Shown piece by piece: positions 18,522 to 39,689 of a stretch of DNA of 64,000 nucleotides. How positions within the stretch are numbered: the first letter of the stretch is position 1; every line of letters begins with the position of its first letter. Made by a program: the position numbers and the translations under genes. Source of the DNA: Kribbella rubisoli (lineage in GTDB: Bacteria; Actinomycetota; Actinomycetes; Propionibacteriales; Kribbellaceae). The notes below the pieces were generated by a model that was given only the letters and a program-made list of their open reading frames with translations, did no database searches and was not told where the DNA came from. The stretch covers positions 496,001-560,000 of the forward strand of contig NZ_SHKR01000014.1 in assembly GCF_004217145.1 (NCBI RefSeq). The letters are read 5' to 3'.

Positions 18522-18616
18522 GAGGACGACCCCCTCCGTCAGGGTGGGGCGCCGTCTTGACAGACCGGGTACGGCGCCGCTCGTCCGGGGAGCCCGCTTG
18601 CCGTGAACTCCTCTCG

Positions 18617-24653: not shown

Positions 24654-24785
24654 TCGCTTCCCTCCCACGTTCCTGTTGCGTAACGCAACCACTACGATCC
24701 GTCGAACCCTAGTTCGGCGTACCGCCCGCTGGGAAGCGGAACTCCGCGTGATTCTGCGGATTTCACGGCGGCAAGGGAAATCCTG

Positions 24786-25241
24786 TTATCCGAGGGCGAG
24801 CGGCTTGCCCGGGTACTCACGCAGTACCAGCGAGGTGCTCACCGGCCCCAGCCGGCCGATCGCGTCGACCACCTGCTCGAGCCGGCCGGCGTCGGGCGCG
24901 TGCACGTCGAGCAGGAAGCAGTCCTCACCGGTCAGCCGGTACGTCGCGACGACCTCCTGCAACGTCGCGAACAGCTCGAGCGACTCAGGGATCCGCGCGT
25001 GTGTGGTCCGGACGCGTACGACGGCGTGGATGTTGAGCCCGACCTTGGCGGGGTCGACGACCGCGCGATACCCGGTGATGACGCCGGATCGTTCCAGGCG
25101 CTGGATCCGTGCCGATACCGCGGGCTGCGACAGGTTCACCTTCCGCCCGATATCGGCCCCGCTCAGCCTGCCGTCGGTCTGCAGGATCGCCAGGATCTCC
25201 CGGTCGATCGGGTCCAATGAACCAATCGTTGCCTCGCTCAT
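24786..25241 (-). CDS. Lrp/AsnC family transcriptional regulator
   Basis: 151-residue leucine-responsive-type regulator. The N-terminal winged helix is clear (LDPIDREILAILQTDGR, then IGRKVNLSQPAVSARIQRLE), followed by the RAM ligand-binding domain (HAVVRVRTTHARIPE, TGEDCFLLDVHA). Such proteins form octamers and sense amino acids. It is divergent from the small hydrolase gene at 25324, with 82 bases between the starts, so autoregulation and control of that gene are likely (inference). Confidence 0.9.
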   Translation of the reverse strand: MSEATIGSLDPIDREILAILQTDGRLSGADIGRKVNLSQPAVSARIQRLERSGVITGYRAVVDPAKVGLNIHAVVRVRTTHARIPESLELFATLQEVVATYRLTGEDCFLLDVHAPDAGRLEQVVDAIGRLGPVSTSLVLREYPGKPLALG

Positions 25242-25323
25242 CGACCTTCATTTCATCCGCTCAGGGCGCCGTACGACGATGACTCCTCCATGATGGCAGG
25301 CGTTCACACGCAAAGGAGAGTTC

Positions 25324-25887
25324 ATGACCTTCGTCATCATCCCCGGCCTCGACGGCTCCGACGTACATCACTGGCAGTCGCGGTGGGAGAGCGAGTGGCT
25401 CGCGTCCGCCTTGCGGATTCAGCCGTCGTCGTGGTCGGCGCCGGACCTCACCGATTGGTCCGACGCGATCACGCGGGCCGTCGAGAGTGCGGCTGACGAC
25501 ATCGTCTTCGTCACGCACAGCCTCGGCTGCCATGCCCTGTCCCACTGGCTGACCCAGTCACCACCACCCACTCGCATCCGCGGCGCCTTCCTGGTCGCGC
25601 CTCCCGACCCGCAGGCGCAGACCTTCCCAACGGACCGCCTACCGACCTTCGCCTCCCTCCCCGCCCCTCGCCTCCCCGTTCCCACCGTCCTCGTCACCAG
25701 CACCGACGACCCCTACTGCAGCCCCACCGCTGCGGCCCGCCTCGCCCGATCCTGGGCAACGCCTCACATCCCCCTGCCCCGTCTGGGCCACATCAACAGC
25801 GACAGCGACCTCGACCTGTGGCCTGCAGGGCGTGATCTCCTCACCGCGTTCGCGGCAGGTCTGGGCTTGGAAGCGGACAGGTTCTGA
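25324..25887 (+). CDS. RBBP9/YdeN-type alpha/beta hydrolase
   Basis: 187-residue small serine hydrolase of the RBBP9/YdeN family. The nucleophile lies in THSLGC, the Asp in TSTDDPYC and the His in RLGHINSDS, with HHWQSRW near the N-terminus as in this family. Function in bacteria is mostly unknown. AAAGGAGAG precedes the ATG by a few bases. It is divergent from the Lrp gene. Confidence 0.86.
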   Translation: MTFVIIPGLDGSDVHHWQSRWESEWLASALRIQPSSWSAPDLTDWSDAITRAVESAADDIVFVTHSLGCHALSHWLTQSPPPTRIRGAFLVAPPDPQAQTFPTDRLPTFASLPAPRLPVPTVLVTSTDDPYCSPTAAARLARSWATPHIPLPRLGHINSDSDLDLWPAGRDLLTAFAAGLGLEADRF

Positions 25888-25935
25888 CCGCTACCTCTTC
25901 TAGCGTTGGAGCAACACTCAGGAGAGGATCCCGTC

Positions 25936-27036
25936 ATGACGACGCTGAGCCTGCAGGCACTGAACCGTGCCACGCTCGACCGCCAATGGCTGCTCGAACG
26001 CCACGACGCCACCGCCCTCGAAGCGATCGAGCACCTGGCCGGCATGCAGGCCCAGGCCCCGCTCGCGCCGTACGTCGGCCTCTGGACCCGGCTGAAGGAC
26101 TTCCAGCCTGCTGAACTCGTCAAGCTCCTGGAGGACCGCCAGGCCGTCCGCGGTTCGTTGATGCGGGCAACCATCCACCTGGTCTCGAGCCGCGACTTCC
26201 TCGCCTTCCGGCCGCTCATCCAGCCCCGCCTGGACCGCGAGATCTACCAGAACATCACCTACGGCCGGCACCGCCTCGAGGGCCTCGACATGGACGCCGT
26301 ACTCCAAGCCGGCATCGACCGCATGACCGAGAGCCCCGCTACGGCCGTCCAACTCCGCGAGCACCTCGCCAAACTCTGGCCCGACCGCGAACCCGCCGCC
26401 CTGGCCCACGCCGTCCGCTGCCTCCTCCCCACCATCCAGATCCCACCCCGAGGCATCTGGAACAAAGGCGGCAACCCCACCATGACCACCGCCGACCTCT
26501 GGCTCAACTCCCCCATCACCACCAAGCCCTCCGCAGAAGCCTTGGTACTCCGCTACCTAGCCGCCTACGGCCCCGCGACCGTAGCCGACGCCCAAACCTG
26601 GTCCGGTCTCACCCACCTGGCCGAAATCTTCGACCGCCTGGACCTCCGCACCTACACCACCCCCGACTCCAACCGCCCCCTCTACGACCTCCCCGACATC
26701 CCCCTCCCACCCGAAGACACCGAACCCCCCACCCGCTTCCTCCCCGAATACGACAACCTCCTCCTCTCCCACGCCGACCGCACCCGCTTCTCCCCCACCC
26801 CTACCCCCACTTCCCTCCCCCTACAAACCCTCCTAACCAAAGGCACAATCCTCCACAACGGCTACACCAAAGCCCTATGGACCCAATCCAAATCCAAAAC
26901 CCAAACCACCCTACAAATAGCCCCCACCACCAAGCTCTCCCACCAAGCCTGGCAATCAATCGAGTCAGAAGCCCACAACCTCCTAACCTTCACAAACCCC
27001 AACGCCACCCACACCATCACCCGCACCGACACCTGA
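25936..27036 (+). CDS. winged-helix DNA-binding domain protein (HTH_42/AlkX-like)
   Basis: 366-residue member of the HTH_42 (YcaQ/AlkZ-like) family, recognised by LNRATLDRQWLL, LAGMQAQAPLAPYVGLW and RGSLMRATIHLVS. Relatives include DNA glycosylases such as AlkZ/AlkX that act on crosslinked or alkylated DNA; the usual catalytic QxQ/QxD-type motif may correspond to MQAQ. Glycosylase activity is possible, not shown. The ATG at 25936 has GGAGAGG upstream and a TAGCGT -10 box at 25901. The last 600 bases are almost free of G on the coding strand and use codons such as CTA, AAA, CAA and ATA that neighbours avoid. Confidence 0.85.
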   Translation: MTTLSLQALNRATLDRQWLLERHDATALEAIEHLAGMQAQAPLAPYVGLWTRLKDFQPAELVKLLEDRQAVRGSLMRATIHLVSSRDFLAFRPLIQPRLDREIYQNITYGRHRLEGLDMDAVLQAGIDRMTESPATAVQLREHLAKLWPDREPAALAHAVRCLLPTIQIPPRGIWNKGGNPTMTTADLWLNSPITTKPSAEALVLRYLAAYGPATVADAQTWSGLTHLAEIFDRLDLRTYTTPDSNRPLYDLPDIPLPPEDTEPPTRFLPEYDNLLLSHADRTRFSPTPTPTSLPLQTLLTKGTILHNGYTKALWTQSKSKTQTTLQIAPTTKLSHQAWQSIESEAHNLLTFTNPNATHTITRTDT

Positions 27037-27089
27037 CTCAGGTATCGTTCTCCTGTCGGCGGAGGTGCGCTAACACCGTTGATACCGAC

Positions 27090-27135
27090 GAGACCGCGGC
27101 GCATTTTCGGATCCGACTCCGTGCGCCGCGGTCTC
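27090..27135. terminator. bidirectional terminator between the winged-helix gene and the Tcp-like operon
   Basis: Perfect 14-base inverted repeat (27090-27103 and 27122-27135) with an 18-base loop, placed between convergent genes that end at 27036 and 27166. Confidence 0.85.
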
Positions 27136-27165
27136 TTGCCTCCTCAGGCCAGAATCGACTCCACG

Positions 27166-28215
27166 TCAGCCCCATGCGGCGGGTGGAATTCCGCCTGCTT
27201 GCTCGAGTGTGTGCACGCGCTCCACCAACGACGGCGTGCTCGACATCACCTGCGCTCGACGGCTGCTCTCGCGACCCAGGTCCTGTTGATGCTGCATCTG
27301 CCATCCGTACAAGACTTGCACCAAGGTGGCGCCGTACCCGAGCATGGCCGCCTTTCGGTCAGCCTCCTTGACATGCCAGCGATTGAGCCAGGCAAGGAAG
27401 GGCGGGGCGATAAATGGAGTGAGAAAGAGAATCGGCCAGATATACCCGTGGCCGAAGGTGAACGCCGCAAGCACAATGCCGGCGTACGCCATGATCATGA
27501 AGCCGCCGATGATGCATCCAAGAGCAGGCACGCGTCTCATCAGGCGCGCGACCGCGCGTACGACGATCAACCCACATCGAGCCGGGATCGAGTACCAGAA
27601 GTTGACCAGGCTCAGCCACGCCCGCCCGCCGAGGTGGTGACTCAACTCGTGAGCCAAAGCCGCTTCCAGGTGCTGCGGAGGCAGGGTGTAGAGCGACCAT
27701 CGCGTAACCGCGACGGTGTGCCCGGGAGTTGGTGTCGCACTAACCTCGTCCGACTCCTGAATCCACAATGAGAACCGTCGATCAGGCACACCGGCTCGGC
27801 CGAGAAGGTGCTGCCAAGCCGGGCCCAGCCTCTGCTGCTCAACAAGCGTCGGTCGGCGCAGTCGGAAAAGGTACTTCGCCAGCAGTTCCTCGGTTGACGG
27901 CAGCAGGATCATGGCACCGGACAGGATCCAGAGTGCGATCACGATCCAGCCCCACTTGAATCCGATCGCACCTGCGATCCAAATGACGAGAACCAGGCTC
28001 CAGAAGAACCACGGAACGGCCGACAACAAGGCCGTCCAGGCCGAGGCCTCGGGCAAGTTGCGTGGCCGAGATTGAGAGTGTCCACCGGCAGGACCGGGCA
28101 ACTGAGGCTGTGGCTGTGGCTGGTTGTAGCCTCGCGCGCCGGGATAGGGCGGCACCGGGCCGGGCCTGGACCCCTCACCACCACTCTGGTCGTAGGGTTC
28201 ACCGGGGCCGGTCAT
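27166..28215 (-). CDS. M48-type membrane zinc protease
   Basis: 349-residue protein. A Pro/Gln/Gly-rich cytoplasmic N-terminus (1-55) is followed by two membrane segments (about 62-104). Then comes a peptidase M48 domain with HELSH (189-193), plus two more hydrophobic segments (about 230-275). M48 enzymes (HtpX, Oma1) cut membrane proteins. I place the start at an ATG with AGGAG 9 bases upstream; an in-frame ATG at 28257, three bases after the stop of the preceding gene, is possible too. It is the last gene of the Tcp-like run, so it may process a component or substrate of that apparatus (inference). Confidence 0.78.
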   Translation of the reverse strand: MTGPGEPYDQSGGEGSRPGPVPPYPGARGYNQPQPQPQLPGPAGGHSQSRPRNLPEASAWTALLSAVPWFFWSLVLVIWIAGAIGFKWGWIVIALWILSGAMILLPSTEELLAKYLFRLRRPTLVEQQRLGPAWQHLLGRAGVPDRRFSLWIQESDEVSATPTPGHTVAVTRWSLYTLPPQHLEAALAHELSHHLGGRAWLSLVNFWYSIPARCGLIVVRAVARLMRRVPALGCIIGGFMIMAYAGIVLAAFTFGHGYIWPILFLTPFIAPPFLAWLNRWHVKEADRKAAMLGYGATLVQVLYGWQMQHQQDLGRESSRRAQVMSSTPSLVERVHTLEQAGGIPPAAWG

Positions 28216-28259
28216 TGGACGCTTCTCCTCGGGGTTGGGCGGGTTGGGTCCGTTCATTA

Positions 28260-29405
28260 TCAGTACAGGGACACGTGGACGTGGTCGAAGTGGCCGCCGG
28301 TGGCGTCGGTTGGGTTGTAGACGCCGCCGCCGTTGTACGGGATCCAGGTGCCGCGGCGGGCGGACCAGATCTTGCCGTACCAGATCACGTAGTGCACGCC
28401 TGTCTGTCCGGCGGTGGTCACGGCCCAGTTCGCGATCTGGTCGCCGCGGGCGCGAGCGGGCGCGGACTGTCTGGCGTCTGTGCCGACCATGACGTCACAT
28501 GCCAGGCCGCGAGGGTGGTCGCTGGTCGGATTCCATGCGTGCGCGTCCCAGCAGCTCATGCTCAAGTTGCCGAGATTCTTGCGCGCCGCCGCGACCCAGG
28601 CCGCCGTACGCGGCGTCACCAAACCACCGGTACCAGTCGGATCTGTGACGGTCGCCTTCTGCTGTGGCCAGACGCCGTTGACCGGCTTGCCTGCGGTCAA
28701 TCCGCCCGACTGACCGCAGTTGTCGTCGTCCTGCAATCCATCGACGACTGACCCACCGGCCGGCGCGCCGGTGCGACCGGCGTACGGGTTCCCAGCTCTG
28801 GTCAGATCGATGCCGGCTGCAGAGGCGATCTCGCGGGCCTCTTGCTCGCGTACGGCGTACCTGTCAGGGAACGCGGATACCTGGACTGCCTGAGCAGCAT
28901 CACCTAGCGCCATCGAGGGCCAGCCATTGATGTCCACGAGTCCGGGCGGATCTGGCGCCTGGGAGCCGCCGAAGAACGCGTTGGCGGCGTACCGCGGATT
29001 CATAATCTGAAGCCGCGACCCCCAGCCCGCCGCGGGTCGCTGCTGGAACAGACCGACCGAGTCGGCGTCGCCGTAGGTGAGGTTCTGGAGATCTGACTCG
29101 ACCAATGCCGTCATCAAAGCGATCAGCGTCGCTTTGCCCGGTAGGCCTCGCTGCACGGCGACGCTGTCGATCAGTTTGGCGAAAGCGACCTGCGTCGTAC
29201 GAAGTGGCCCGCTGGGCTTAGGGTCGCCGCCCTGGCCGGGAAGTCCGACGGGGCAAGCAGCCTGGTTCGTCGTACCGCCACCGAACGGAGCAAGCATCAG
29301 CAGGCTTGCGACCCCGATGACCGCCAGCGCGGCCGCACCTTTGGCAGCCCACCCTCGCCCGACGACCGACAGGAGCCCATGACCGAGATCACGCTCGTCG
29401 AACAT
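28260..29405 (-). CDS. membrane-anchored cell-wall hydrolase of the Tcp-like system (TcpG-like role)
   Basis: 381-residue protein with one N-terminal membrane helix (22-40). An all-alpha lytic-transglycosylase-like region follows (about 65-215; ALVESDLQNL, DSVGLFQQRP). The C-terminal domain (about 270-381) carries SDHPRGLACDVM and GHFDHVHVS, the metal-binding layout of the M15/ARB_07466-type peptidoglycan hydrolase domain. Type IV secretion systems need such an enzyme to open the wall; in pCW3 that job is done by TcpG. GGAGG precedes the ATG. It follows the VirB8-like gene by 15 bases. Confidence 0.8.
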   Translation of the reverse strand: MFDERDLGHGLLSVVGRGWAAKGAAALAVIGVASLLMLAPFGGGTTNQAACPVGLPGQGGDPKPSGPLRTTQVAFAKLIDSVAVQRGLPGKATLIALMTALVESDLQNLTYGDADSVGLFQQRPAAGWGSRLQIMNPRYAANAFFGGSQAPDPPGLVDINGWPSMALGDAAQAVQVSAFPDRYAVREQEAREIASAAGIDLTRAGNPYAGRTGAPAGGSVVDGLQDDDNCGQSGGLTAGKPVNGVWPQQKATVTDPTGTGGLVTPRTAAWVAAARKNLGNLSMSCWDAHAWNPTSDHPRGLACDVMVGTDARQSAPARARGDQIANWAVTTAGQTGVHYVIWYGKIWSARRGTWIPYNGGGVYNPTDATGGHFDHVHVSLY

Positions 29406-29420
29406 CGCAGTCCTCCGCCG

Positions 29421-30344
29421 TCACGGTCCCGTACCGCCGGACACGTCGCTGATGACCCACTGACCGTTCTGGTTTGCCAGCGTGATGAGCAGCGGTACGT
29501 CGAACCGCTGAGCGTGCTTGCCGGTGACGTCGATAGTGACCTTGACGAAGCGGGTGATGCGGCTCGGAGTGTCGACCGGAGCCTCCGCATTTGCAGGTGG
29601 AGCAGTGACCGGAGCTGCGAGAACCGTCGACTTACCGCCATCGCTCTTGAGCGCTTCGTACGTCGGATCTCCCGCGGCGGTGAAGCTCGACGCCACCTCG
29701 GAGGTCATGTATTTCGCGCATTTCGCCACGAGTGCGGCGTACGTCTCCGTTGCCGGGTCGCGGGTGTAGAAGGCTCGCGCCCACGCGCTGACGACATCGG
29801 TCGCCATAGCTGTCGCCTCGGCTGCCGGTCGTTGAGTCTCGGGCGGCGGAGTGGTGAGGTCCGAGCTCGCGGGAGCGACGGGTTCGTTCGACTGGGTCGA
29901 CGGCGCAGTCGGGAGCACGACCGAGCGACCAGGTGTCAGCAAGCTGATCGGGGCTCCGTCGTCCTTGTTCTTGCCGCCCAGCAGCCGCGGCAGTCCACCG
30001 CCGACACCGAGGATGACCACGATCAGGATGACGACCAGGACCACAATGGCCGCGGGGCTCGTCGGTTCGGCCTGGCGCTGATTGCGTAGCCAGGCCATGC
30101 GCTGCACATGATCATCACGACGCCAGTTCTTCTTCGCACGGCGCCGGTCGCGACCGTGGAGATCGTCCAACTCTTCCGGGTAGTCGTAGTCGTTGCTCAT
30201 CAGCGAGCGCCAGCCCTCAGGGGCATCAGGGCGCGGCTGACCTTCCCGACCGTCCGTTTTCGGCCCGGTCGGGTCAGGTGCGCGATGCCGCGACTGACTG
30301 GCGCCTTCCCGGCGGTCGTGCGGCGATTTGGGTTTCCGGGCCAT
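29421..30344 (-). CDS. bitopic membrane protein, VirB8/NTF2-like, of the Tcp-like system
   Basis: 307-residue protein: a charged, disordered N-terminus (1-95) with acidic and Arg-rich blocks, one membrane helix (about 98-120), a Pro/Ser linker, and an external domain of about 130 residues (from ATAMATDVVSAWARAFYTRD to the end, with WVISDVSGG) that looks like the NTF2-like fold of VirB8/TcpC. The residue pattern is weak, so this rests on topology and context. It starts 6 bases after the stop of the TcpH-like gene. With the TcpC-like protein it would be a second VirB8-like subunit in the same operon. Confidence 0.65.
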   Translation of the reverse strand: MARKPKSPHDRREGASQSRHRAPDPTGPKTDGREGQPRPDAPEGWRSLMSNDYDYPEELDDLHGRDRRRAKKNWRRDDHVQRMAWLRNQRQAEPTSPAAIVVLVVILIVVILGVGGGLPRLLGGKNKDDGAPISLLTPGRSVVLPTAPSTQSNEPVAPASSDLTTPPPETQRPAAEATAMATDVVSAWARAFYTRDPATETYAALVAKCAKYMTSEVASSFTAAGDPTYEALKSDGGKSTVLAAPVTAPPANAEAPVDTPSRITRFVKVTIDVTGKHAQRFDVPLLITLANQNGQWVISDVSGGTGP

Positions 30345-30350
30345 CCGACA

Positions 30351-32378
30351 TCACCTACGCGTCGGCACGTGCACCGTCACGCCGTCCTTGGTGACAGCCG
30401 AGTATTCCCGGAACCTCCGCGGCTGTGACGTCGACGCCTTCCGCCGAACTCGTTGTCCCTTCGGCGGCCCTTCGCGCAGGCTCGCGGAGTGCGTGTGTGC
30501 ACGCGGCTCGTAGCGGACATCATTGGAAGGCACCGGAATGGGCCGCCGCGAATGACGAGCCTTCTGCGCGTCACCACTGGCTCGACGTGCTCCTCCCGAC
30601 GAGGAGTTGGTCGTCGCTGCGACTCCCGCACTTGTGACCGTGATCGTCGGACGCTTGTCAGCATCCTTCGATTGCGAACGCGCGCGAGCGAGGTTGAGGC
30701 CCGAGGTTGTACGGCTGGGTGTGGCTGCGGAAGCGAGTCGACCAGCCGCTCCGCCAGCAGCACCAGCAGCCGCCGCATGCTGACCACCGGGACCGGCCCC
30801 GCTCGGGCTTCCAGCCGCTCCATCCATGCGGCGACCACCCATGCCCGAGGTGAGCTCATGCGGCGAACTACCAGCCGAACCCCGCCCCAGAGAACCAACC
30901 ACAGGAGCCTGCCGATACACCCGAACAGACGAGACCCGTTGAGAAGCAGGCTCCGTCGTCCGGATGCGATCCCGACTCCGCTCCGTAGGTGCCGGCGCTG
31001 CACCCCGACTGCTCAGGGCACCCATGACCCGCTTGACCGCACTCATCGCGCCACGACGCGCAAGCCCGCCCAACATGATGCTGCCGGCACCAGGCCGCAT
31101 CATCGTCGTGAGGCTATCCAGCAAACGCCGCAGCCGGAATCCGACGATCAACACGACAATTGCCAGTCCGGTAACGGGCAGCCAACCCAACGGGCCGGTC
31201 AACGTGAACACAGCCGTGACAAGGGTCAGTGCAGTTCCGAAGACAAGCATCGCCAGGAAGGACTGCAGGACAAGGCCTACAAGTGCCTCGAACCAGTTCA
31301 ATCCCCATTGGCGAGGACGACCGGGGATGATCCAAAGACAAGCGAAGAACACCCCGACGACAAGAAGCAACAGTGCCCCAATGAACGCCATCAGAGCCGT
31401 GAAAGCCAAGGCGATGTTCAGGAACCCGAACAGTGTGGCAGCGATCGCGGCAAGCATGACGACGGCTGTACGTCCGAATGGGTTGTCGCCCTTGACCCAC
31501 TTCACAGTTGGAGCGTCATCGCCGCCCTCGGCAGGAACGATTACCTTGTTGACGTAGTCCTTCCGGGCGTCCGCGCTGACACCGACGTCGAGCATGCCCT
31601 TCCCGTAACGCTCGCACGCCGAGATCGATCCGAACTCTGCGATGCACCAAGGCGTCACCGCGAATCCCCGCCAACTCGCGTCGGCCGATTTTCGCAGCAA
31701 GGTGTCTCTAGCTGTGCCGGTGAAACCCGGCTCGGGCCACGGAATCGGACTCTGAATCGTTGGCCCTAAGGCATCTGACGATGCGCTCATCACTGCACCT
31801 GCCCCGAGCTGACGCGCACCGTCGACTCCGCGCAACCAAGTTGCCGGTGCCACTGCGAAGCTGACGCTCAGCACACCCGCAACGAGAACCCAAACCATTT
31901 GGCCAAGGGCGCTGCCTGTGGCCCGACGCTGCGTGTAGGCAGCTACCGCACCGAATGCCAGAGCTGACGGTAACAACCATCCGACGAGTTGCGTGCCTGT
32001 AGCACCGATCGTTGTGGCGGTTGCATCGGTGAGTGGCTTGACGTCGGTGAATGAGAACAGCCACCAACCGACAGAGATCGCCGCGCGGGTTATCGCCAGG
32101 ATGTACATCATGACGATGTAGGCGTACCCGTTGAAGATCATGTTGAAGGTGTCGGTCAGACCCGTGTCGAAATCCAAGCCGTAATTCATCGGGCTGTACT
32201 GCTCGAACAGGGTTCGGGTGTCGCCGTGGGTTAGGTCGGGGGTGGGCAGGAGGTCGGCGAAGCCGGTGGGGTTGGTGGGGCCTTGGTTTGGGTCGGCGGC
32301 TAGGGCTACCTGGGCTGTGATTATGAAGGAGATCGAGAGGACCGTGGCCGCGGTTCTGAGGCGGCGGGGCCACCTCAT
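30351..32378 (-). CDS. polytopic channel protein of the Tcp-like system (TcpH/VirB6/TrbL-like)
   Basis: 675-residue protein. A signal-like N-terminal segment (LRTAATVLSISFIITAQVAL) is followed by two clusters of membrane helices (about residues 80-185 and 305-425). A cytoplasmic tail of some 245 residues follows, rich in Arg, Ser, Ala and Gly. This arrangement is that of VirB6/TcpH, the inner-membrane pore of type IV secretion systems. The ATG overlaps the stop of the ATPase gene as ATGA. The first 55 codons share the G-poor coding strand of the ATPase tail next to them. Confidence 0.78.
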   Translation of the reverse strand: MRWPRRLRTAATVLSISFIITAQVALAADPNQGPTNPTGFADLLPTPDLTHGDTRTLFEQYSPMNYGLDFDTGLTDTFNMIFNGYAYIVMMYILAITRAAISVGWWLFSFTDVKPLTDATATTIGATGTQLVGWLLPSALAFGAVAAYTQRRATGSALGQMVWVLVAGVLSVSFAVAPATWLRGVDGARQLGAGAVMSASSDALGPTIQSPIPWPEPGFTGTARDTLLRKSADASWRGFAVTPWCIAEFGSISACERYGKGMLDVGVSADARKDYVNKVIVPAEGGDDAPTVKWVKGDNPFGRTAVVMLAAIAATLFGFLNIALAFTALMAFIGALLLLVVGVFFACLWIIPGRPRQWGLNWFEALVGLVLQSFLAMLVFGTALTLVTAVFTLTGPLGWLPVTGLAIVVLIVGFRLRRLLDSLTTMMRPGAGSIMLGGLARRGAMSAVKRVMGALSSRGAAPAPTERSRDRIRTTEPASQRVSSVRVYRQAPVVGSLGRGSAGSSPHELTSGMGGRRMDGAAGSPSGAGPGGQHAAAAGAAGGAAGRLASAATPSRTTSGLNLARARSQSKDADKRPTITVTSAGVAATTNSSSGGARRASGDAQKARHSRRPIPVPSNDVRYEPRAHTHSASLREGPPKGQRVRRKASTSQPRRFREYSAVTKDGVTVHVPTRR

Positions 32379-35300
32379 GCGACGTGCTCCTTGTTGCCGG
32401 TGGGGCGGTCTGGGTCGGGGGTGGGGTCGTCGGGGTGGGCGGGGTACATGGCTTCGTTGTAGGCGGCCTCGTCGGCTTCTTGGTCGTAGACCTCGTCGGG
32501 GCCGATCGGGGAGTCGTGGCGGAGGGTGGGGCGGGGGTCCTGGCCGTTGGAATGAGGGTGGCCGGTTTCGAGGGCGTGGTCCTGGCCGTTGGGGGTTGGT
32601 GGGTGGCCGTTTTGCTGGGCTACCGGGGTTTCGTCTGCCGGCGAGGGCGTGGGAGCGTAGGTCGGTCCGGGGGCGGGGGGACCTGACTGCGCTTGCTGTG
32701 ATGCAGATTGGAACGGTGCGCTCGGTTGGGCCGGTGATTGCTGGGCCTGAGGCGCGGGGTGCTGCGGGGCCTTGGGGCGGGACGGGGCGGCGCCGTTCGG
32801 TGAGGCAGGTACGCCGTTCTGAGGCGCGGCGAGGGTGCCGTTATAGGACGTGTGGCCGTCCGGGGCGGTGGGAGTGCCTCGGTAGGACGTGGCGTCGCTG
32901 GGTACGGCGGGAGCGCCGTAGGACGCGTCACCGTTGGGCGCGGCCGGCCGGCCGCCGTTAGGCGCCGCGGGAGGGCCGGCGTTAGGTGCGGCGGGAGGGC
33001 CGGCGTAGGACGGGTTGCCGTTTGAGGTGCCGTTGTGCGATGGGGCGTCCTGGTACGTCGGCGCTTGGGTGTGGGCTTCGGATTGGGCGGTGGCGGTGGC
33101 GGCTGGTTCGAAGTGGGGGTCGTCTTCGGCGAAGGGGTCTTCGGGGGCGGCCGCGGGGAGGGCGGGTTGGGTGGGGGTGTTGGCGTGTTCGGATTCGGGG
33201 GTGGTGCGGAGGAGGGCTGCTACCTGCTGGCTGGGGATGTCGATCTGGACGGTGGCTACTTCGTCCCAGCGGTCGCGCATGATGCAGTGGCCGTGGCGGA
33301 TGGATTTGCCGTTGGCGGCGGTGTTGATGCCGCGGACCAGGGTTTGGTACGGCGCGGTCTGCGGGCGGCCCAGGAGCTCGAGGAGCGAGTCGACCTGCTC
33401 GCGGGAACGCAGGCTGAAGGCGAAGAGGGTCGTGATCTGCTCGACCAGACCGGGAAGCTTCAAGATCGACGCCGGGTCCTGGGTGTCCAGGACGAGTGAG
33501 GCGCCGAGTGCACGGCCGACACGGGCGATGTAGTCCAGGAAGGACGCGCCGTCCGGGGTCTTGGTCAGCAGGTGGACCTCGGGGACGATGACGACCTTCG
33601 AGCGGCCGCGGAACTCGCGGCGGCCCGTCGTACGGACCATCCAGGCGAGGCAGCCGCGGAGGCAGGCCATGCCGACGCGTTCGATCGGGGACCAGGACTC
33701 GGGCGCCGACTCGGGGGACGGCAGCGTGAGGCCGGGCATCTGCACGACCCAGAGACCTGGGTTCGTGGTGAGGGACGAGAGGCCGGACGGCGGGCCGGCG
33801 ACGACCGAGCCGAGACCGGTCTCGACCAGGTCGCGCAGGGCGAAGCCCACCGTACGCACGGTCTCCGAGTCGGAAGCGCACAACCGCTGGATGACGCCCC
33901 ACGAGGACGGATCAGGCGACTGGATCTCGGCGCGGGTCGCGGCCATGACCGGAGCCTCGGCCGCACCACGCAGATGCGGCGGCAGCAGAAGCATCAGCTG
34001 CGAAGGCGCCTGCAGCAGCGCATCGTCAACAGGCAGCACGCGCAGCAGGTCTGCAGCGCCGGAGAACTGTGCGGTGATCTCAATGACAGCAGTCGGTACG
34101 CCGTACTCAGCGGCGACCGCCGACACACCCGCGGCATCGCCCTTCAGGTCCAGCAACGGGACCCAAGCGCCGGCAAACGCGGAGTCCAGACCGCCCAGCA
34201 TCGCCGCAGTCGTCTTGCCTCGACCGGACCGGCCCAGGAAGAGCGTCGTCGTCGCGTCACCAAGAGCAGAACCAGCAGCCGCGTCGAACCGCACCAGACC
34301 AGGCGTCGACCCGGTCAGATAGCCGATAGCCGGACCGGTCGCGTCACCGATCGACGCACCGCCCCAGAACCAGGATCCGAAGAACGCAGTCGACTCCCGC
34401 ACATGCCCGAGGTCCGGCACGCGCAACTGGTCACCCGGCAAGGACTCCAGCCACAGGTCGCGCTGCTCGTCAGCACCGGCGGCCACAGTGATGCCACGGT
34501 CCGCGTAGTGCGCGATCACCGCGTCTACATAAGCTTCCAGGTCCTCACGCGTGTCCGCGCTGACCAGCAACCGCGGGTGATCCTCGACCAGCGTCAGACC
34601 ACTGCGGTTGATGTCGCGCTTGACCTCACGCATGACACGCTCGGTCTCCACGATCTCGTCGGCGGTCTCCTCCGCCGTACCCTTCGCGGCCGAACGGCGC
34701 TGCTCCTTCGCGCTCTTCCGGGTCTCGTCGACCAGGTGGCGCGCAGTCTTCTTCGTCAGCACCCGGAAACGCACAGACGCCTCGACAGTGACGTCGATTT
34801 CCTCACCGTCGTCGTCGATCGCCTTGATCTCCGACAGCGTCCGCAGCCACTCCCCCGCCCCCGGAGTCTCGAGCTCCTCGGGGAAGTCGGTCATGGCCAG
34901 GACAGTCGTGTACGCCGCGATCTGCCCACGCGTGTCGTAGATCCGCAGGTGATCGGTGTACGGCACCACGCGCCCCGACGTCAGCCGAGCCAGCGACGCA
35001 CCCGTGATCAGACCACGCCGCGGCGCCGCGACCGCACCGCGATGCATCTCCCGGCTGATCAGCCAGGAGATCACCTCGGCGGGCGCGGTGTGCGCGCGCC
35101 AGACCGTCGAGCCGAGCTGACGAGCGAGCTTGCGCACCCGCTCGTCCAGGTGCGCGAGCTCGCGCGCACTGACCCGCCACGACGTCGTACCAAGAGCGTC
35201 GCTGATCGATCCGCGCACCTGCGCGGTCGCCCGCGGGTCACGGTCACTCAGATGTACGCCGAGCGCGACGTACCGCTCAGGCATCCGCATCTCGTCGATC

Positions 35301-35641
35301 CGGTCGGCCCGGGTCTGCGCCCATGCTTCGTGGTCGCCCAGCCGGTAATGGCCGGCCATCGAGTCGATGTAGTCCTGACCGGTCGAACGGCCCCACACCA
35401 CCTTCAGGTGGCTGAGCCTGTCGCCGAGGATCGTCGCTGCAGCGCTGACGGCTGCGTCCAGAGCTGCGTCCTGCTCGGACTCGGTGGCGAGGTCCGTGTT
35501 GGCCACCGAGATCAGGAACCATGCCTCGGCGCTGCGCTCGGTCACGAGCAGGCCGTCAGCGATGGCAACAAGACGAGGTGGCGGCAGGCCGCGCTCGCGG
35601 CCGACCCCCACCAGGTTCAGGAGTTTGTCAGCGATCTTCAT
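32375..35641 (-). CDS. VirB4/TcpF-like conjugation ATPase with long disordered tail
   Basis: 1088-residue ATPase, the motor of the Tcp-like apparatus. The N-terminal 300 residues resemble the VirB4 non-catalytic part, followed by a charged coiled-coil (about 300-345). The RecA-like domain has Walker A GRSGRGKT (470-477) and a Walker B-like VVIVPEVHLL with Glu where VirB4 usually has Asp-Glu. After about residue 860 the chain is a Pro/Asn/Gly/Ala-rich tail of 230 residues, including an octapeptide repeat, ending with an acidic patch. The ATG overlaps the TcpE-like stop as ATGA; the longer open frame upstream is ignored. The tail is encoded by G-poor, C-rich sequence. Confidence 0.85.
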   Translation of the reverse strand: MKIADKLLNLVGVGRERGLPPPRLVAIADGLLVTERSAEAWFLISVANTDLATESEQDAALDAAVSAAATILGDRLSHLKVVWGRSTGQDYIDSMAGHYRLGDHEAWAQTRADRIDEMRMPERYVALGVHLSDRDPRATAQVRGSISDALGTTSWRVSARELAHLDERVRKLARQLGSTVWRAHTAPAEVISWLISREMHRGAVAAPRRGLITGASLARLTSGRVVPYTDHLRIYDTRGQIAAYTTVLAMTDFPEELETPGAGEWLRTLSEIKAIDDDGEEIDVTVEASVRFRVLTKKTARHLVDETRKSAKEQRRSAAKGTAEETADEIVETERVMREVKRDINRSGLTLVEDHPRLLVSADTREDLEAYVDAVIAHYADRGITVAAGADEQRDLWLESLPGDQLRVPDLGHVRESTAFFGSWFWGGASIGDATGPAIGYLTGSTPGLVRFDAAAGSALGDATTTLFLGRSGRGKTTAAMLGGLDSAFAGAWVPLLDLKGDAAGVSAVAAEYGVPTAVIEITAQFSGAADLLRVLPVDDALLQAPSQLMLLLPPHLRGAAEAPVMAATRAEIQSPDPSSWGVIQRLCASDSETVRTVGFALRDLVETGLGSVVAGPPSGLSSLTTNPGLWVVQMPGLTLPSPESAPESWSPIERVGMACLRGCLAWMVRTTGRREFRGRSKVVIVPEVHLLTKTPDGASFLDYIARVGRALGASLVLDTQDPASILKLPGLVEQITTLFAFSLRSREQVDSLLELLGRPQTAPYQTLVRGINTAANGKSIRHGHCIMRDRWDEVATVQIDIPSQQVAALLRTTPESEHANTPTQPALPAAAPEDPFAEDDPHFEPAATATAQSEAHTQAPTYQDAPSHNGTSNGNPSYAGPPAAPNAGPPAAPNGGRPAAPNGDASYGAPAVPSDATSYRGTPTAPDGHTSYNGTLAAPQNGVPASPNGAAPSRPKAPQHPAPQAQQSPAQPSAPFQSASQQAQSGPPAPGPTYAPTPSPADETPVAQQNGHPPTPNGQDHALETGHPHSNGQDPRPTLRHDSPIGPDEVYDQEADEAAYNEAMYPAHPDDPTPDPDRPTGNKEHVA
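32931..33002 (-). repeat. three 24-base tandem units in the TcpF-like tail
   Basis: Units begin at 32931, 32955 and 32979 and encode AGPPAAPN-like octapeptides. They differ at a few bases, so they are not freshly duplicated. Confidence 0.75.
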
Positions 35642-36201
35642 TCGCGGCCCTTCCCTGACGACGTCCTGCGACTCACCCGTTGTACGTGATCCGAACCCAG
35701 CAGGCGGGCCCGCTGGTTCACGGTGATGTCCGCACCCGCGCGGACCATCGGATCGAGCTCCACCACGACCTCGCGTTCCCACTCCGGCGTCACTCTGGCC
35801 TTCGCCAGGTCGGCAACCTTCCGGGTCGCGACGCGCTCACGCCACGGCAGGTACTCCGTCTTGTCGGCGGCCCGCGCGCCGAGACCGATGATCGGGCGAT
35901 GTGCACGCAACGCGTACCGCACGGCCAGCGCCCACTCGGTCACCCGGCGGCGGCGTTCGTGGAACTTGCCGGGCCGCCAGCCGAACGCGGTGATCACGAA
36001 CGGCGGAACGACATACAGACTGACCGTGGGCTTCTTCGGCACCCCGATGAACGGGAACAGCAACGCGATCCAGAGCACGATGATCACCGCACCGAAGATG
36101 ATCATCCGGCGCCGGGCGCCTTCTCCGAGGTCGATGCCGAGCAGGTCGTACTGCCGGGTCTCGATCTCGAAGTGGTGAGTGAGGGTACGGCCGACGCGCA
36201 T
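35638..36201 (-). CDS. TcpE-like conjugation membrane protein
   Basis: 187-residue protein: a short N-terminus, one or two membrane segments (about 34-73), and a basic cytoplasmic domain of 110 residues. Size, topology and place between the TcpD-like and TcpF-like genes match TcpE/PrgI-type subunits, which recruit the VirB4-like ATPase to the membrane. The ATG overlaps the TcpD-like stop as TGATG and has GGAGG upstream; a TTG one codon earlier is less likely. Its own stop overlaps the ATPase start. Confidence 0.75.
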   Translation of the reverse strand: MRVGRTLTHHFEIETRQYDLLGIDLGEGARRRMIIFGAVIIVLWIALLFPFIGVPKKPTVSLYVVPPFVITAFGWRPGKFHERRRRVTEWALAVRYALRAHRPIIGLGARAADKTEYLPWRERVATRKVADLAKARVTPEWEREVVVELDPMVRAGADITVNQRARLLGSDHVQRVSRRTSSGKGRE

Positions 36202-36488
36202 CAATTACCTCCGGACAGCAATCCCCAAAAGCCCTTGAGCACGTTGATGGTCTGGTTGTTGGCGTAGATCAGCCCGCCGACCAGCACCCCGGCCGCGATG
36301 TGGCCGAACAGCTCGCCCCACTCGCGCTTGAAGTAGTGGCCGATGGCACGCAACACGAGGATCGCGATGAAGATGTTCCCCGCGATGACCAGGACCCAGT
36401 CCTTGAAGTCCGCGCCCGTAGGGACGTTGGGGTCGGCCATGGGCACGGCAAGCTGAACCACGCTCGCAGCCAGTTCGTGCGTCATCAT
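36201..36488 (-). CDS. TcpD-like small membrane protein
   Basis: 95-residue protein with a short outer N-terminus and two hydrophobic segments (about 31-49 and 60-78), separated by a basic loop. TcpD of pCW3 is a similar small membrane protein coded between tcpC and tcpE. GGGAGA lies 7 bases before the ATG. It lies 49 bases after the TcpC-like gene and is coupled to the TcpE-like gene. Confidence 0.72.
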   Translation of the reverse strand: MMTHELAASVVQLAVPMADPNVPTGADFKDWVLVIAGNIFIAILVLRAIGHYFKREWGELFGHIAAGVLVGGLIYANNQTINVLKGFWGLLSGGN

Positions 36489-36537
36489 TGCGGTGTCTCC
36501 CTTGTTGCCTCGGTCATCCGATGGCCAGTCGCTGGAA

Positions 36538-37818
36538 TCATCCGACGGCAGCCACTTGCCATCGTTGTGCTCCGTCGGTGGCGACAGTACGCCTCAACGT
36601 GAGCGTGTACGTCTGGTCCAAGGTGGTGTCCCCCGCCCCGTCCCAGGTGACGGCCGCGGTCGCCCGCCGCTCGTCGTCGTTACCCGTGTAGACCTGCCAA
36701 TCCTTGAGCGCGCCGAACTTCACCGCACCGTTCAGGCTGCGGATGGTCGAGCCGGGCGCGGTCACTGCCGAGACCTTGTTGTCCGACTCGGCATACGCAC
36801 CGAAGAACGCCTCCGCGTCCTTCTGCGTCGCCGCGGTCAAGTCGTCGTCCGGTGCCCCTGCCTGGGGCATGTTGTCGGGCAGCGCCGCCCGGATGTCCGG
36901 CACGAACGTCGGCGGCCCGCTGGTCACAACGCGCGCCGCGGTCCGCGCGACCGGGACCGACACGCGCTCCCAGATGATCGGTCCGGCCTTCCAGCCCCTG
37001 CCCTGCCGCGCGAACGTGTGCACCCGGACCCGGACATCCACCACAGCGGTCAGGCCGTTGGAGTCGGGCGTGACCTCACCCGGATAGGCAACGTCAGCCG
37101 TTTGTTTGCCGCGACCGTTCCATCCCGCGCGACTGTCCAGTCCGGCCGCGAGGTCGAGACCGATCTGCGCAGGACGCGCGTCCGGGTTGTCCTCGTCCCA
37201 CGTCAGGTACGAAACGGCGTACCGCGTCGCGACTGCACGGGACTCGTCGGCCGGGAAGCTGCTCTGCCCGCTGACGACGGTCTCCGGTGTCCGGTTCGGG
37301 CTGATCCAGGAGCGGATGCCGCTGATGGCTGCCAGCAGCAGCACGACGACGACGAGGCCGCGGAAGAATCGCCTTGCCCACGTGGAAAACGACGACTCCG
37401 GCTCGGTCGACCACGGCGTCTGTCCAGGCTCCAGCACCTCCCGGGCCGGGCCCGGCGCAGCGTGAGCACCGTGGGATCCGTGCGGGGAACGCTGTTTCAA
37501 ACGTTCGGGTGTGCGGTGCGCCGGGTCCTGATGCGGCACGTCCGGAGGACCTGAAGGACCTGAAGGACGCTGCGCCGGCCGACGGGGCGGCGCCATCACG
37601 CCACCGGGCGGAGGCGGTCCCTGTTGCTGAGGAGCGGAGTATTGCGCCGCTACGCCCTGCGCCTGGCGAGGGGTCGGTGACACCGGGCCACCGGGGTGGT
37701 CCCACCACTCCGGTGCGGTGCTCTGCGGGCGTCCTTTGCCCGCCTTCTTGGTCCGGCGCTGGTCCGACCAATGCTCACCTTTTGGCGGCAGATTCAATGC
37801 AGTTCGCCACCAACTCAT
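36538..37818 (-). CDS. TcpC-like conjugal transfer protein (VirB8 family)
   Basis: 426-residue bitopic protein. The first 145 residues are disordered, rich in Pro, Gln and Arg; a membrane helix follows (about 152-170), then an outer region of 255 residues with two NTF2-like halves. This is the layout of TcpC, the essential VirB8-like scaffold of Gram-positive conjugation systems. Recognisable pieces include AVSYLTWDEDNPDARPAQI and EAFFGAYAESDN. It is the first gene of the run and follows a promoter-like sequence at 37851-37878. Confidence 0.82.
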   Translation of the reverse strand: MSWWRTALNLPPKGEHWSDQRRTKKAGKGRPQSTAPEWWDHPGGPVSPTPRQAQGVAAQYSAPQQQGPPPPGGVMAPPRRPAQRPSGPSGPPDVPHQDPAHRTPERLKQRSPHGSHGAHAAPGPAREVLEPGQTPWSTEPESSFSTWARRFFRGLVVVVLLLAAISGIRSWISPNRTPETVVSGQSSFPADESRAVATRYAVSYLTWDEDNPDARPAQIGLDLAAGLDSRAGWNGRGKQTADVAYPGEVTPDSNGLTAVVDVRVRVHTFARQGRGWKAGPIIWERVSVPVARTAARVVTSGPPTFVPDIRAALPDNMPQAGAPDDDLTAATQKDAEAFFGAYAESDNKVSAVTAPGSTIRSLNGAVKFGALKDWQVYTGNDDERRATAAVTWDGAGDTTLDQTYTLTLRRTVATDGAQRWQVAAVG

Positions 37819-37850
37819 CCCTACCCGCCCCTCAGACAGCAGTTACGCGG

Positions 37851-37878
37851 ACAGTAGCCGGGAGGATACGGCAAGCAA
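37851..37878 (-). promoter_or_regulatory. promoter of the Tcp-like operon
   Basis: On the minus strand TTGCTT (37878-37873) and TACTGT (37856-37851) are 16 bases apart, 33 bases before the TcpC-like ATG. A bulged inverted repeat (GGAGGATACGG against CCGTCCTCC) surrounds the -35 box and could be an operator. Confidence 0.45.
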
Positions 37879-38198
37879 CCGTCCTCCGGGAGACCTCAGC
37901 CCAGGATCCGGATGGTCCATCGCTCCCCGCAGCCATACTGTTACCCCGCTCGCGGGAAGTGTCACCCTCACCGTCACTATTACCGGCCAAGCGTGACACC
38001 TTCGGCACCGTCGTCATAGCTCCTTCTCATGACCGTTCAGGTCGACCGGGCAGCGCACACCCTGCCACACGCCGTGGACAGGTTTCGAATATCCGTGCGA
38101 ACAGCTAGGTACAGAATGCACCAACTGATCACAGATAGTAACCGATCCGGCGATCCGCCTGTGGAAAACTCTCCCGTGGCGAGGGGGTCAAAATCGCC

Positions 38199-38272: not shown

Positions 38273-39148
38273 ATGGAAACTCGCCGACTGGGCAGACTCG
38301 GACACCAGAGCTCGGTACTGATCTACGGCGCCGCGTCGCTCGGCGGAGTCGACCAGGACCGCGCCGATGCCTCGATCCAGGAAGCTCTGGATGCCGGCAT
38401 CAACCATTTCGACGTGGCCGCCGACTACGGCGACGCCGAGCTCCGGCTCGGACCGCGGATGCCCGAGATCCGCGACCGCATCTTCCTCGCCACCAAGACC
38501 GGCCGCCGGACGGTCGAGGAGGCCTGGAGCGAGATCAACCGTTCACTGGAGCGACTCCAGACAGACCACCTGGATCTGATTCAGATGCACGCCGTCTGCG
38601 ACATGGAGAACCTCGATCTCGTCACCGGCAAGGGCGGATCGCTGGAAGCGGCGATCCGGGCCAAGGACGAAGGCATGGTCCGGGCGATCGGCATCACCGG
38701 CCACACCGAGCAGGCGCCGTCGGTGCACACCGAGGGCCTGCGCCGGTTCGATTTCGACAGCGTGCTCACCCCGTTGAACTACAAGCTGTCGACGGATCCG
38801 CAGTACGCCGCTGATTACGCCGGCCTGGTCGAGGCCGTGAAGGCGTCGGACGCAGCGCTGATGACGATCAAGATGATTGCCCGCCGCAACTGGCAGGACG
38901 GCGAGCAGAAGGCCTACGACACGTGGTACCGGCCGTTCGACGAGCAGCGCTACATCACCGCCGCCACCGCGTGGCTGCTCAACGGTCACCCGGAGATCAC
39001 CGGGCTCGCTACTGCGGGTGAGACCCGGCTGCTGCAACAAATGATTGTTGCAGAGCGCGAGCGCGCCGACCTCACCCCCGAGGCGGCCGCGTCGATTCTC
39101 GGTGAGGTGCAGGACTACGCGTCACCCTTCGTGGACTCACCCATCTGA
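38273..39148 (+). CDS. aldo/keto reductase
   Basis: 291-residue aldo/keto reductase. The catalytic set is visible: Asp and Tyr in FDVAADYGDAELRLG, Lys in ATKTGRR and His in LIQMHAVCDM. It ends with an extra helical segment (LTPEAAASILGEVQDYASP) typical of the YdhF/Aq_1627-like group; the substrate is unknown. GGAGGA precedes the ATG. A strong terminator follows, so it is monocistronic. It is not closely similar to the shorter aldo/keto reductase at 18617. Confidence 0.88.
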   Translation: METRRLGRLGHQSSVLIYGAASLGGVDQDRADASIQEALDAGINHFDVAADYGDAELRLGPRMPEIRDRIFLATKTGRRTVEEAWSEINRSLERLQTDHLDLIQMHAVCDMENLDLVTGKGGSLEAAIRAKDEGMVRAIGITGHTEQAPSVHTEGLRRFDFDSVLTPLNYKLSTDPQYAADYAGLVEAVKASDAALMTIKMIARRNWQDGEQKAYDTWYRPFDEQRYITAATAWLLNGHPEITGLATAGETRLLQQMIVAERERADLTPEAAASILGEVQDYASPFVDSPI

Positions 39149-39183
39149 CGACGTGGCCCAGGTCACATACGAGACTCCGCATT

Positions 39184-39218
39184 CCGGTCACTGTCGTACG
39201 GCGTACGACAGTGACCGG
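39184..39218 (+). terminator. terminator after the aldo/keto reductase gene
   Basis: Perfect 16-base stem (39184-39199 and 39203-39218) around GGC, 35 bases after the stop codon. Confidence 0.85.
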
Positions 39219-39299
39219 CGTGCGCGGTCCGGGGCCGGGAACAAGTCGAGGGCCGATCGGTGTTGAGCTAGTCGTACTCATCTACTTTCGGAGGTCGTA

Positions 39300-39689
39300 G
39301 TGGCAACGGTCGAGCTGACCCAGGACAACTTCAACGAGGTGGTCGGTGGCGACGGTCTCGTGCTGGTGGATTTCTGGGCCGAGTGGTGTGGCCCGTGCAA
39401 GATGTTCGGACCGGTCTATGAGAAGTCGTCCGAGCAGCATGCGGACATCACGTTCGGCAAGGTCGACACCGAGGCTCAGGGCGAGCTGGCGCAGGCCTTC
39501 CAGATCTCGTCGATCCCCACGCTGATGGCGGTCCGTGACGGCGTCGTCCTGTACTCGCAGGCCGGTGCGCTGCCGTCGGCGAGCCTGGAGGACCTGATCG
39601 GTCAGCTGCGCGCGGTGGACATGGAAGAGGTCAAGGCGCAGATCGCCGCCCACGAGGCGGAGCACGGCAGCGAGCCGCACACGCACTGA
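39300..39689 (+). CDS. trxA: thioredoxin
   Basis: 129-residue thioredoxin with the active site WCGPC (Cys30 and Cys33), FWAEWCGPCK, and the cis-proline loop SSIPTLM. It reduces disulfides in the cytoplasm using thioredoxin reductase. It is about 20 residues longer than E. coli thioredoxin, with a His/Glu-rich C-terminus (AAHEAEHGSEPHTH) that could bind metal. GTG start with CGGAGG 6 bases upstream; a TACTTT box lies just before it. No reductase gene is adjacent. Confidence 0.92.
   Translation: MATVELTQDNFNEVVGGDGLVLVDFWAEWCGPCKMFGPVYEKSSEQHADITFGKVDTEAQGELAQAFQISSIPTLMAVRDGVVLYSQAGALPSASLEDLIGQLRAVDMEEVKAQIAAHEAEHGSEPHTH

Follow-up and report, generated by a model that had tools for sequence, protein, structure and literature searches.

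A stretch of 64,000 nucleotides from Kribbella rubisoli (hereafter the window) carries, at positions 37818–27166 and read on the minus strand, eight genes, some of them overlapping, that together resemble a type IV secretion system (T4SS) of the Gram-positive Tcp/Tn916 type, since a VirB4-type ATPase, a VirB8-family subunit and a VirB1-type wall hydrolase are all encoded. Known Gram-positive T4SSs are nearly all conjugation machines, and their conversion to organs with other jobs is a long-standing question (PMC12857230, a 2025 review). An earlier reading of the window from its letters alone (the original prediction) had placed eight same-strand, partly overlapping genes here, and the reading of open reading frames (ORFs), the family searches and the predicted structures bear this out.

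The first of the eight genes encodes a TcpC-like protein of the VirB8 family (36538–37818; 426 amino acids, aa), whose match to the Pfam family TpcC (2.1e-7) is over the cut-off. It is followed by a TcpD-like small membrane protein (36201–36488; 95 aa; NCBIfam TcpD_dom 0.011, below cut-off), by a TcpE-like membrane protein (35638–36201; 187 aa; Pfam TcpE 0.041, below cut-off), the ATG of which at 36201 overlaps the TcpD stop, and by a VirB4/TcpF-type ATPase (32375–35641; 1088 aa; Pfam AAA_10 1.1e-21), which consists of a conserved core of about 820 aa and a long, variable tail rich in Pro, Gln and Asn, and which matches the NCBIfam TcpF model at 2.8e-11, below the model cut-off. Next comes a TcpH/VirB6-like polytopic protein (30351–32378; 675 aa), with an NCBIfam CD3337/EF1877 match of 2.6e-14 that is likewise below the cut-off and 34–42% identity to the genes at the same position of plasmid operons. 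The names TcpC, VirB4 and M48 are well supported by Pfam and NCBIfam, whereas TcpD, TcpE and TcpH are putative names that rest partly on synteny, because these weakly matching genes recur in the same order in plasmid operons, with 32–51% identity there.

The remaining three genes were assigned with the help of structure prediction or family profiles. For the 307-aa protein at 29421–30344 the Pfam search gave no match; the best PDB match of its predicted NTF2-like domain was the VirB8 domain of PrgL (7aed, Foldseek E 6.6e-4), followed by 3ub1 (an NTF2-like conjugation protein), CagV and DotI, so that its assignment as a second VirB8-like protein, proposed at the outset, is supported by the model. 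The models were made with AlphaFold, from alignments built only from proteins of the window locus and the Kribbella genome loci, and were compared with Foldseek. The two-domain wall hydrolase (28260–29405; 381 aa), also named in the original prediction, combines a muramidase-like domain with a VldE-like Zn endopeptidase; 8b2h (5e-10) and 9flh (3e-8) were matched by sequence and the same two by fold, and within the endopeptidase motif SDHPRG...D...HFDHVH the residues H297, D304, H375 and H377 are invariant in 33 sequences. The last gene encodes an M48-family membrane protein with the motif HELSH (27166–28257; 363 aa), having a Pfam M48 match of 3e-7, over the cut-off, and a profile match to Ste24p (4il3, 1.2e-6).

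The operon is a resident core feature of the genus and is not mobile. The TcpE gene was found in 38/38 Kribbella genomes, in single copy except in G012, whose second copy, on a separate contig, looks like an assembly duplication. The aldo/keto reductase (AKR) and thioredoxin-like genes that lie upstream in K. rubisoli (38273–39689, plus strand) adjoin it in almost every Kribbella locus, the same AKR gene being accompanied usually by the thioredoxin genes. The downstream flank (23184–27036) holds genes for an M4-type peptidase, an AsnC regulator, an RBBP9-like hydrolase and a winged-helix DNA-binding family protein, and at least one of these follows the operon in all sufficiently long loci except the truncated locus of G009. 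This statement on flanks covers the loci in which both are readable; of the operon itself, 33 Kribbella loci could be read. The N-terminal 400 residues of VirB4 had no match outside Kribbella among 294 genomes from 37 genera of the order. No tRNA lies in the window, in which the original prediction had seen nothing for tRNA integration, and its view of a resident, conjugation-derived apparatus, for which it had proposed a comparison of related genomes, holds in the light of these data; sporadic presence was not seen, while att repeats were not searched directly. We therefore rejected a mobile element on the grounds of ubiquity, shared flanks and purifying selection on VirB4. The operon is most closely related to operons on plasmids of Paenarthrobacter, Arthrobacter and Streptomyces, with 46–50% identity in VirB4, and no relaxase was recognised by Pfam in three plasmid loci (L002, L003 and L005). 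A single acquisition before the sampled Kribbella diverged, with vertical descent thereafter, is plausible.

An important characteristic of the operon, which is new in this analysis, is that its two halves evolve at different speeds and that the distal half is exchanged as a block. Mean identity across the genus is 97% for the VirB4 core, 94% for TcpD, 91% for TcpE, 91% for AKR and 80% for TcpC, and falls to 67.5% for the hydrolase, 62% for TcpH, 54% for the second VirB8 and 45% for M48. The ratio of nonsynonymous to synonymous divergence (dN/dS) of VirB4 is 0.007–0.026 in the pairs tested, which together with the 97% identity of its core indicates strong purifying selection. TcpH, VirB8, hydrolase and M48 sort the loci into the same groups, at least three deep allele classes and two singletons, namely class I (n=14, including K. 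rubisoli), class II (n=9), class III (n=8) and the singletons G034 and G031. In trees made with a quick search, each main class forms one fully supported clade for the block, whereas on the backbone tree members of one class lie apart, with 13 changes where 4 would suffice; on an unlinked tree, built from rplI and a second T4SS-like locus described below, 14 class changes were counted against a minimum of 4, a value as low as this arising in 23 of 200 shuffles. The approximately unbiased (AU) test on the backbone data rejected monophyly of every main class (p-AU 1.7e-4, 1e-65 and 7e-6).

The exchange is seen between the close species K. capetownensis (locus L011, class III) and K. pittospori (L012, class I). 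Their DNA identity is mostly 93–99% up to the VirB4-TcpH junction, 51–70% through TcpH, VirB8, hydrolase and M48, and again 92–97% within the winged-helix gene; synonymous divergence (dS) is 0.03–0.17 outside the block and 1.4–2.2 inside it, a rise of roughly tenfold. Transferred from this comparison, the class I block of K. rubisoli spans approximately 27040–32378. In all between-class pairs the proportion of synonymous differences (pS) in the block is at least 0.58, compared with 0.13–0.56 for AKR and VirB4 between classes. Positive selection was considered as the cause of the divergence and rejected, because dN/dS is below 0.5 throughout and synonymous sites jump too; the same jump means that the block TcpH-VirB8-hydrolase-M48 has been replaced as a unit between close species by recombination, and not by fast point evolution. 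Class I shows a mosaic between K. rubisoli and G026 (dS 1.1 for TcpH and 1.6 for M48; 0.35 for VirB8 and 0.28 for hydrolase), and gene mixing between the main classes was not seen. Between the M48 gene and the flank, a search for effector genes returned winged-helix paralogues, an IS3-type transposase pair (G002) and the VirD4 gene of class III, and nothing else.

This VirD4 concerns the M48 gene, whose place at the end of the operon the original prediction had called unusual. Unusual it is, and yet it is no stray: M48 is present in 33/33 readable loci, and on plasmids it is paired with VirD4. A VirD4-like ATPase gene stands directly behind M48 in class III only, that is in 8/33 readable loci, so that absence of a coupling protein is not a general property of this locus type, although the other 25/33 have no VirD4. 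The only plasmid matches of M48, in Nocardiopsis flavescens and a Saccharothrix sp., are both overlapping M48-VirD4 pairs with HELGH, and these two-gene units (L181:11707-14321 and L182:10663-13370) have no other operon genes found beside them. On this genomic linkage, M48 looks like a partner of a coupling ATPase; classes I and II are without that ATPase and have M48 all the same. The zinc-binding motif HExxH persists in 12/14 class I loci and in 8/8 class III loci, is lost in 9/9 class II loci and in the singleton G031, and is altered in G005 and G035; these losses imply that catalysis is dispensable in some backgrounds. In three species (G002, G007 and G014; loci L064, L069 and L075) the VirB4 tail and TcpH are fused in one open frame of 1609–1693 aa, a sign that motor and channel may touch and that VirB4 and TcpH may work together.

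Taking these observations together, we consider it probable, though well short of assured, that the operon is a resident, conjugation-derived envelope machine with an exchangeable module. A plasmid-type conjugation channel would have become a fixture of the chromosome ahead of the divergence of the sampled Kribbella species and would have turned into a core, non-mobile envelope machine, in which VirB4 with TcpC, TcpD and TcpE would form the conserved motor and base, while TcpH (VirB6), the second VirB8, the muramidase/Zn-endopeptidase and the M48-family protein would form a co-adapted envelope module, swapped whole from one species to another when the conserved flanks recombine homologously. 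Powered by ATP, the machine may move a substrate across the wall where this has been opened locally, either upon contact or while hyphae grow. M48 may act with or in place of VirD4, processing the substrate in classes I and III, whereas in class II it would be a partner without catalysis. The alleles of the module would stay diverse because what they face outside varies, for instance a partner cell, a rival or a phage. The data establish the architecture of the operon, its core status, its lack of mobility, the block exchange and the linkage of M48 with VirD4, whereas the export of a substrate, the dependence on contact and the reason for the diversity are inferred.

Some points weigh against this explanation. 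Ancient diversity combined with recombination could persist without any outside-facing selection, and dN/dS is well below 1; the loci that served to name the classes are also those on which their switches were counted, although the second tree is unlinked. In G009, TcpH is broken at residue 238 (L071:8246-8935) and the distal module is absent from the stretch examined; this natural truncation or rearrangement implies that the machine is not strictly essential.

A more far-reaching proposal, which we regard as possible but tentative, is that the operon is a polymorphic organ of recognition or rivalry, in which a fixed motor would be combined with exchangeable modules and these would determine the cells or phages that are engaged, M48 being a new T4SS partner of the coupling ATPase.

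Rather doubtful is the explanation that the operon is a resident DNA-transfer channel, serving mobilisable islands or chromosomal exchange among Kribbella and using a relaxase and a VirD4 that are encoded at other places of the genome. The original prediction of no relaxase and no coupling protein holds locally, as neither lies beside the K. rubisoli operon, but not for the whole genome. One TrwC (MobF) relaxase of 1250 aa is encoded on another contig (G000:C3), in an unlinked, tRNA-adjacent island (L135:8690-16422) with an integrase and AbiE-like genes, in which no T4SS gene was seen, and TrwC/MobF matches occur in 27/38 Kribbella genomes (MobP in 1/38). A similarity search of the K. rubisoli genome with the class III VirD4 found no coupling protein, and with AAA_10 over the family cut-off the only match in the genome was the operon VirB4. 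However, a VirD4 of about 614 aa is present in 38/38 genomes and belongs, in K. rubisoli, to the aforementioned second T4SS-like locus (G000:C1:2152076-2161946; L144:12076-19992 and L145:142-1946), which encodes VirD4, a VirB4-like ATPase, TrbL/VirB6, a TrbC/VirB2 pilin, DUF4913 and DUF6668 and adjoins dnaB, rplI and ssb. This VirD4 could serve the operon in trans, the plasmid relatives of the operon are conjugative-type operons, and the frequent allele exchange means that DNA moves among these species by some route. Nevertheless, 11 genomes carry the operon with neither a TrwC nor a MobP match, the operon is without VirD4 in most of its readable loci, the second locus has an ATPase, a VirB6 and a pilin of its own, and several MobF relaxases elsewhere in Kribbella have, by coordinates, a VirD4 within about 15 kb. 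The second locus was found in 34/34 genomes examined, the close pair G006 and G016 (L175 and L180) being without recognisable TrbL and the 266-aa and 285-aa genes, and plasmid relatives of its ATPase reach 78% identity. The neighbouring K. rubisoli dnaB (L144:6145-9519) apparently contains, as judged by eye, at least two intein-like insertions.

Kribbella is filamentous, and a developmental envelope complex resembling Streptomyces cmdABCDEF, acting in aerial growth, sporulation septation or chromosome segregation and not in export to other cells, comes into consideration, though we judge it unlikely. Mutations in cmdA-F disturb sporulation and chromosome segregation and leave plasmid transfer unaffected (PMC2782261), and SCO4132 (tgdA), numbered next to the cmd cluster, encodes a putative transglycosylase. 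On the other hand, the second locus is a competing candidate for the equivalent of cmd, and its ATPase, the shorter one, may be closer to CmdB than the operon VirB4 is; and a swap of half the apparatus between alleles at 36–64% identity would be unexpected for a purely internal part. An ordinary integrative conjugative element or its decaying remnant is highly improbable, because the points in its favour, namely that the operon is homologous over its full length to transfer operons of plasmids and that G009 has lost the distal half, stand against the same site and flanks in 38/38 genomes, the lack of a tRNA in the window, a VirB4 dN/dS of about 0.01–0.03 and reading frames that are intact in nearly all species.

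Two further features of the window deserve mention. Ahead of TcpC lies a conserved small ORF of 61 codons (37832–38017, minus strand), which the original prediction missed; its stop is 13 nt before the TcpC start codon, its start is preceded by AAGGAG and its C-terminus reads VACRILPATVRVTAV. Elsewhere in Kribbella its length is 57–61 codons, and all genomes whose upstream region could be aligned (37/37) have it intact, with near-invariant C-terminal residues and with the second codon position varying least. A structured RNA leader was rejected despite the very conserved DNA upstream of TcpC, on the basis of an RNA fold z-score of 0.42 and no Rfam match for this region, and the DNA conservation stems at least partly from the small ORF. 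The other feature is a guanidine-III riboswitch at 18546–18611 on the minus strand, recognised with 53 bits.

The locus is a candidate for the genus-wide domestication of a T4SS, in which 38 species can be compared. It offers natural material in class-swap pairs such as K. capetownensis and K. pittospori, the losses of the M48 active site, the gene fusions and the one truncation, and, as the block is exchanged, the idea that partner specificity is set by the envelope half of a T4SS becomes open to test. The pairing of M48 with VirD4 points to an apparently undescribed coupling component. In the open-access literature we found nothing on T4SS together with M48 and VirB4, and T4SS together with Kribbella led only to work on Streptomyces mirabilis, an absence which is no proof of novelty.

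Among known systems there is the tcp locus of pCW3 from Clostridium perfringens, whose gene order the original prediction held to be kept. As in Kribbella, TcpC, TcpD, TcpE, TcpF, TcpH and hydrolase equivalents stand in one locus; however, the pCW3 order is A-C-D-E-F-G-H, with the hydrolase TcpG before TcpH (PMC3506638), whereas the Kribbella hydrolase follows TcpH and the second VirB8. In addition, pCW3 has a TcpA coupling protein and a TcpM relaxase, with no second VirB8 or M48 named (PMC6137059, PMC3506638). Closer are the plasmid operons of Paenarthrobacter (NZ_CP101191), Streptomyces albidoflavus (NZ_CP109237) and Streptomyces pFRL6, which have the same order TcpC-TcpD-TcpE-VirB4-TcpH-VirB8-hydrolase as Kribbella and a VirB4 that is 47–50% identical. 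These differ in being plasmid-borne, in having, in two of those viewed, a VirD4-type gene close by, in extra small genes within the operon, and in a VirB4 of about 850 aa without the long tail; no M48 gene was found in them.

The Streptomyces coelicolor cluster cmdABCDEF (SCO4126-4131) with tgdA is, like the Kribbella operon, chromosomal and T4SS-like, with a neighbouring wall lytic enzyme; it does not support plasmid transfer (PMC2782261, PMC6585502), and its VirB4-like ATPase is related to plasmid transfer genes (PMC2782261). It has another gene set, no allelic block exchange is reported in the cited papers, and any orthology would be putative. Ptl, Brucella VirB and Helicobacter pylori ComB function without a dedicated coupling protein (PMC12857230), as might the VirD4-free Kribbella operon, for which a core VirD4 elsewhere could, however, act in trans; these are diderm systems with outer-membrane core complexes. 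Bartonella Trw resembles the Kribbella operon in being a conjugation-derived T4SS in which some subunits are diversified, and itself has no VirD4 (PMC12857230, PMC2883598), but it is a diderm system diversified through multiple VirB2 and VirB5 copies, whereas in Kribbella single-copy VirB6, VirB8, hydrolase and M48 are replaced jointly.

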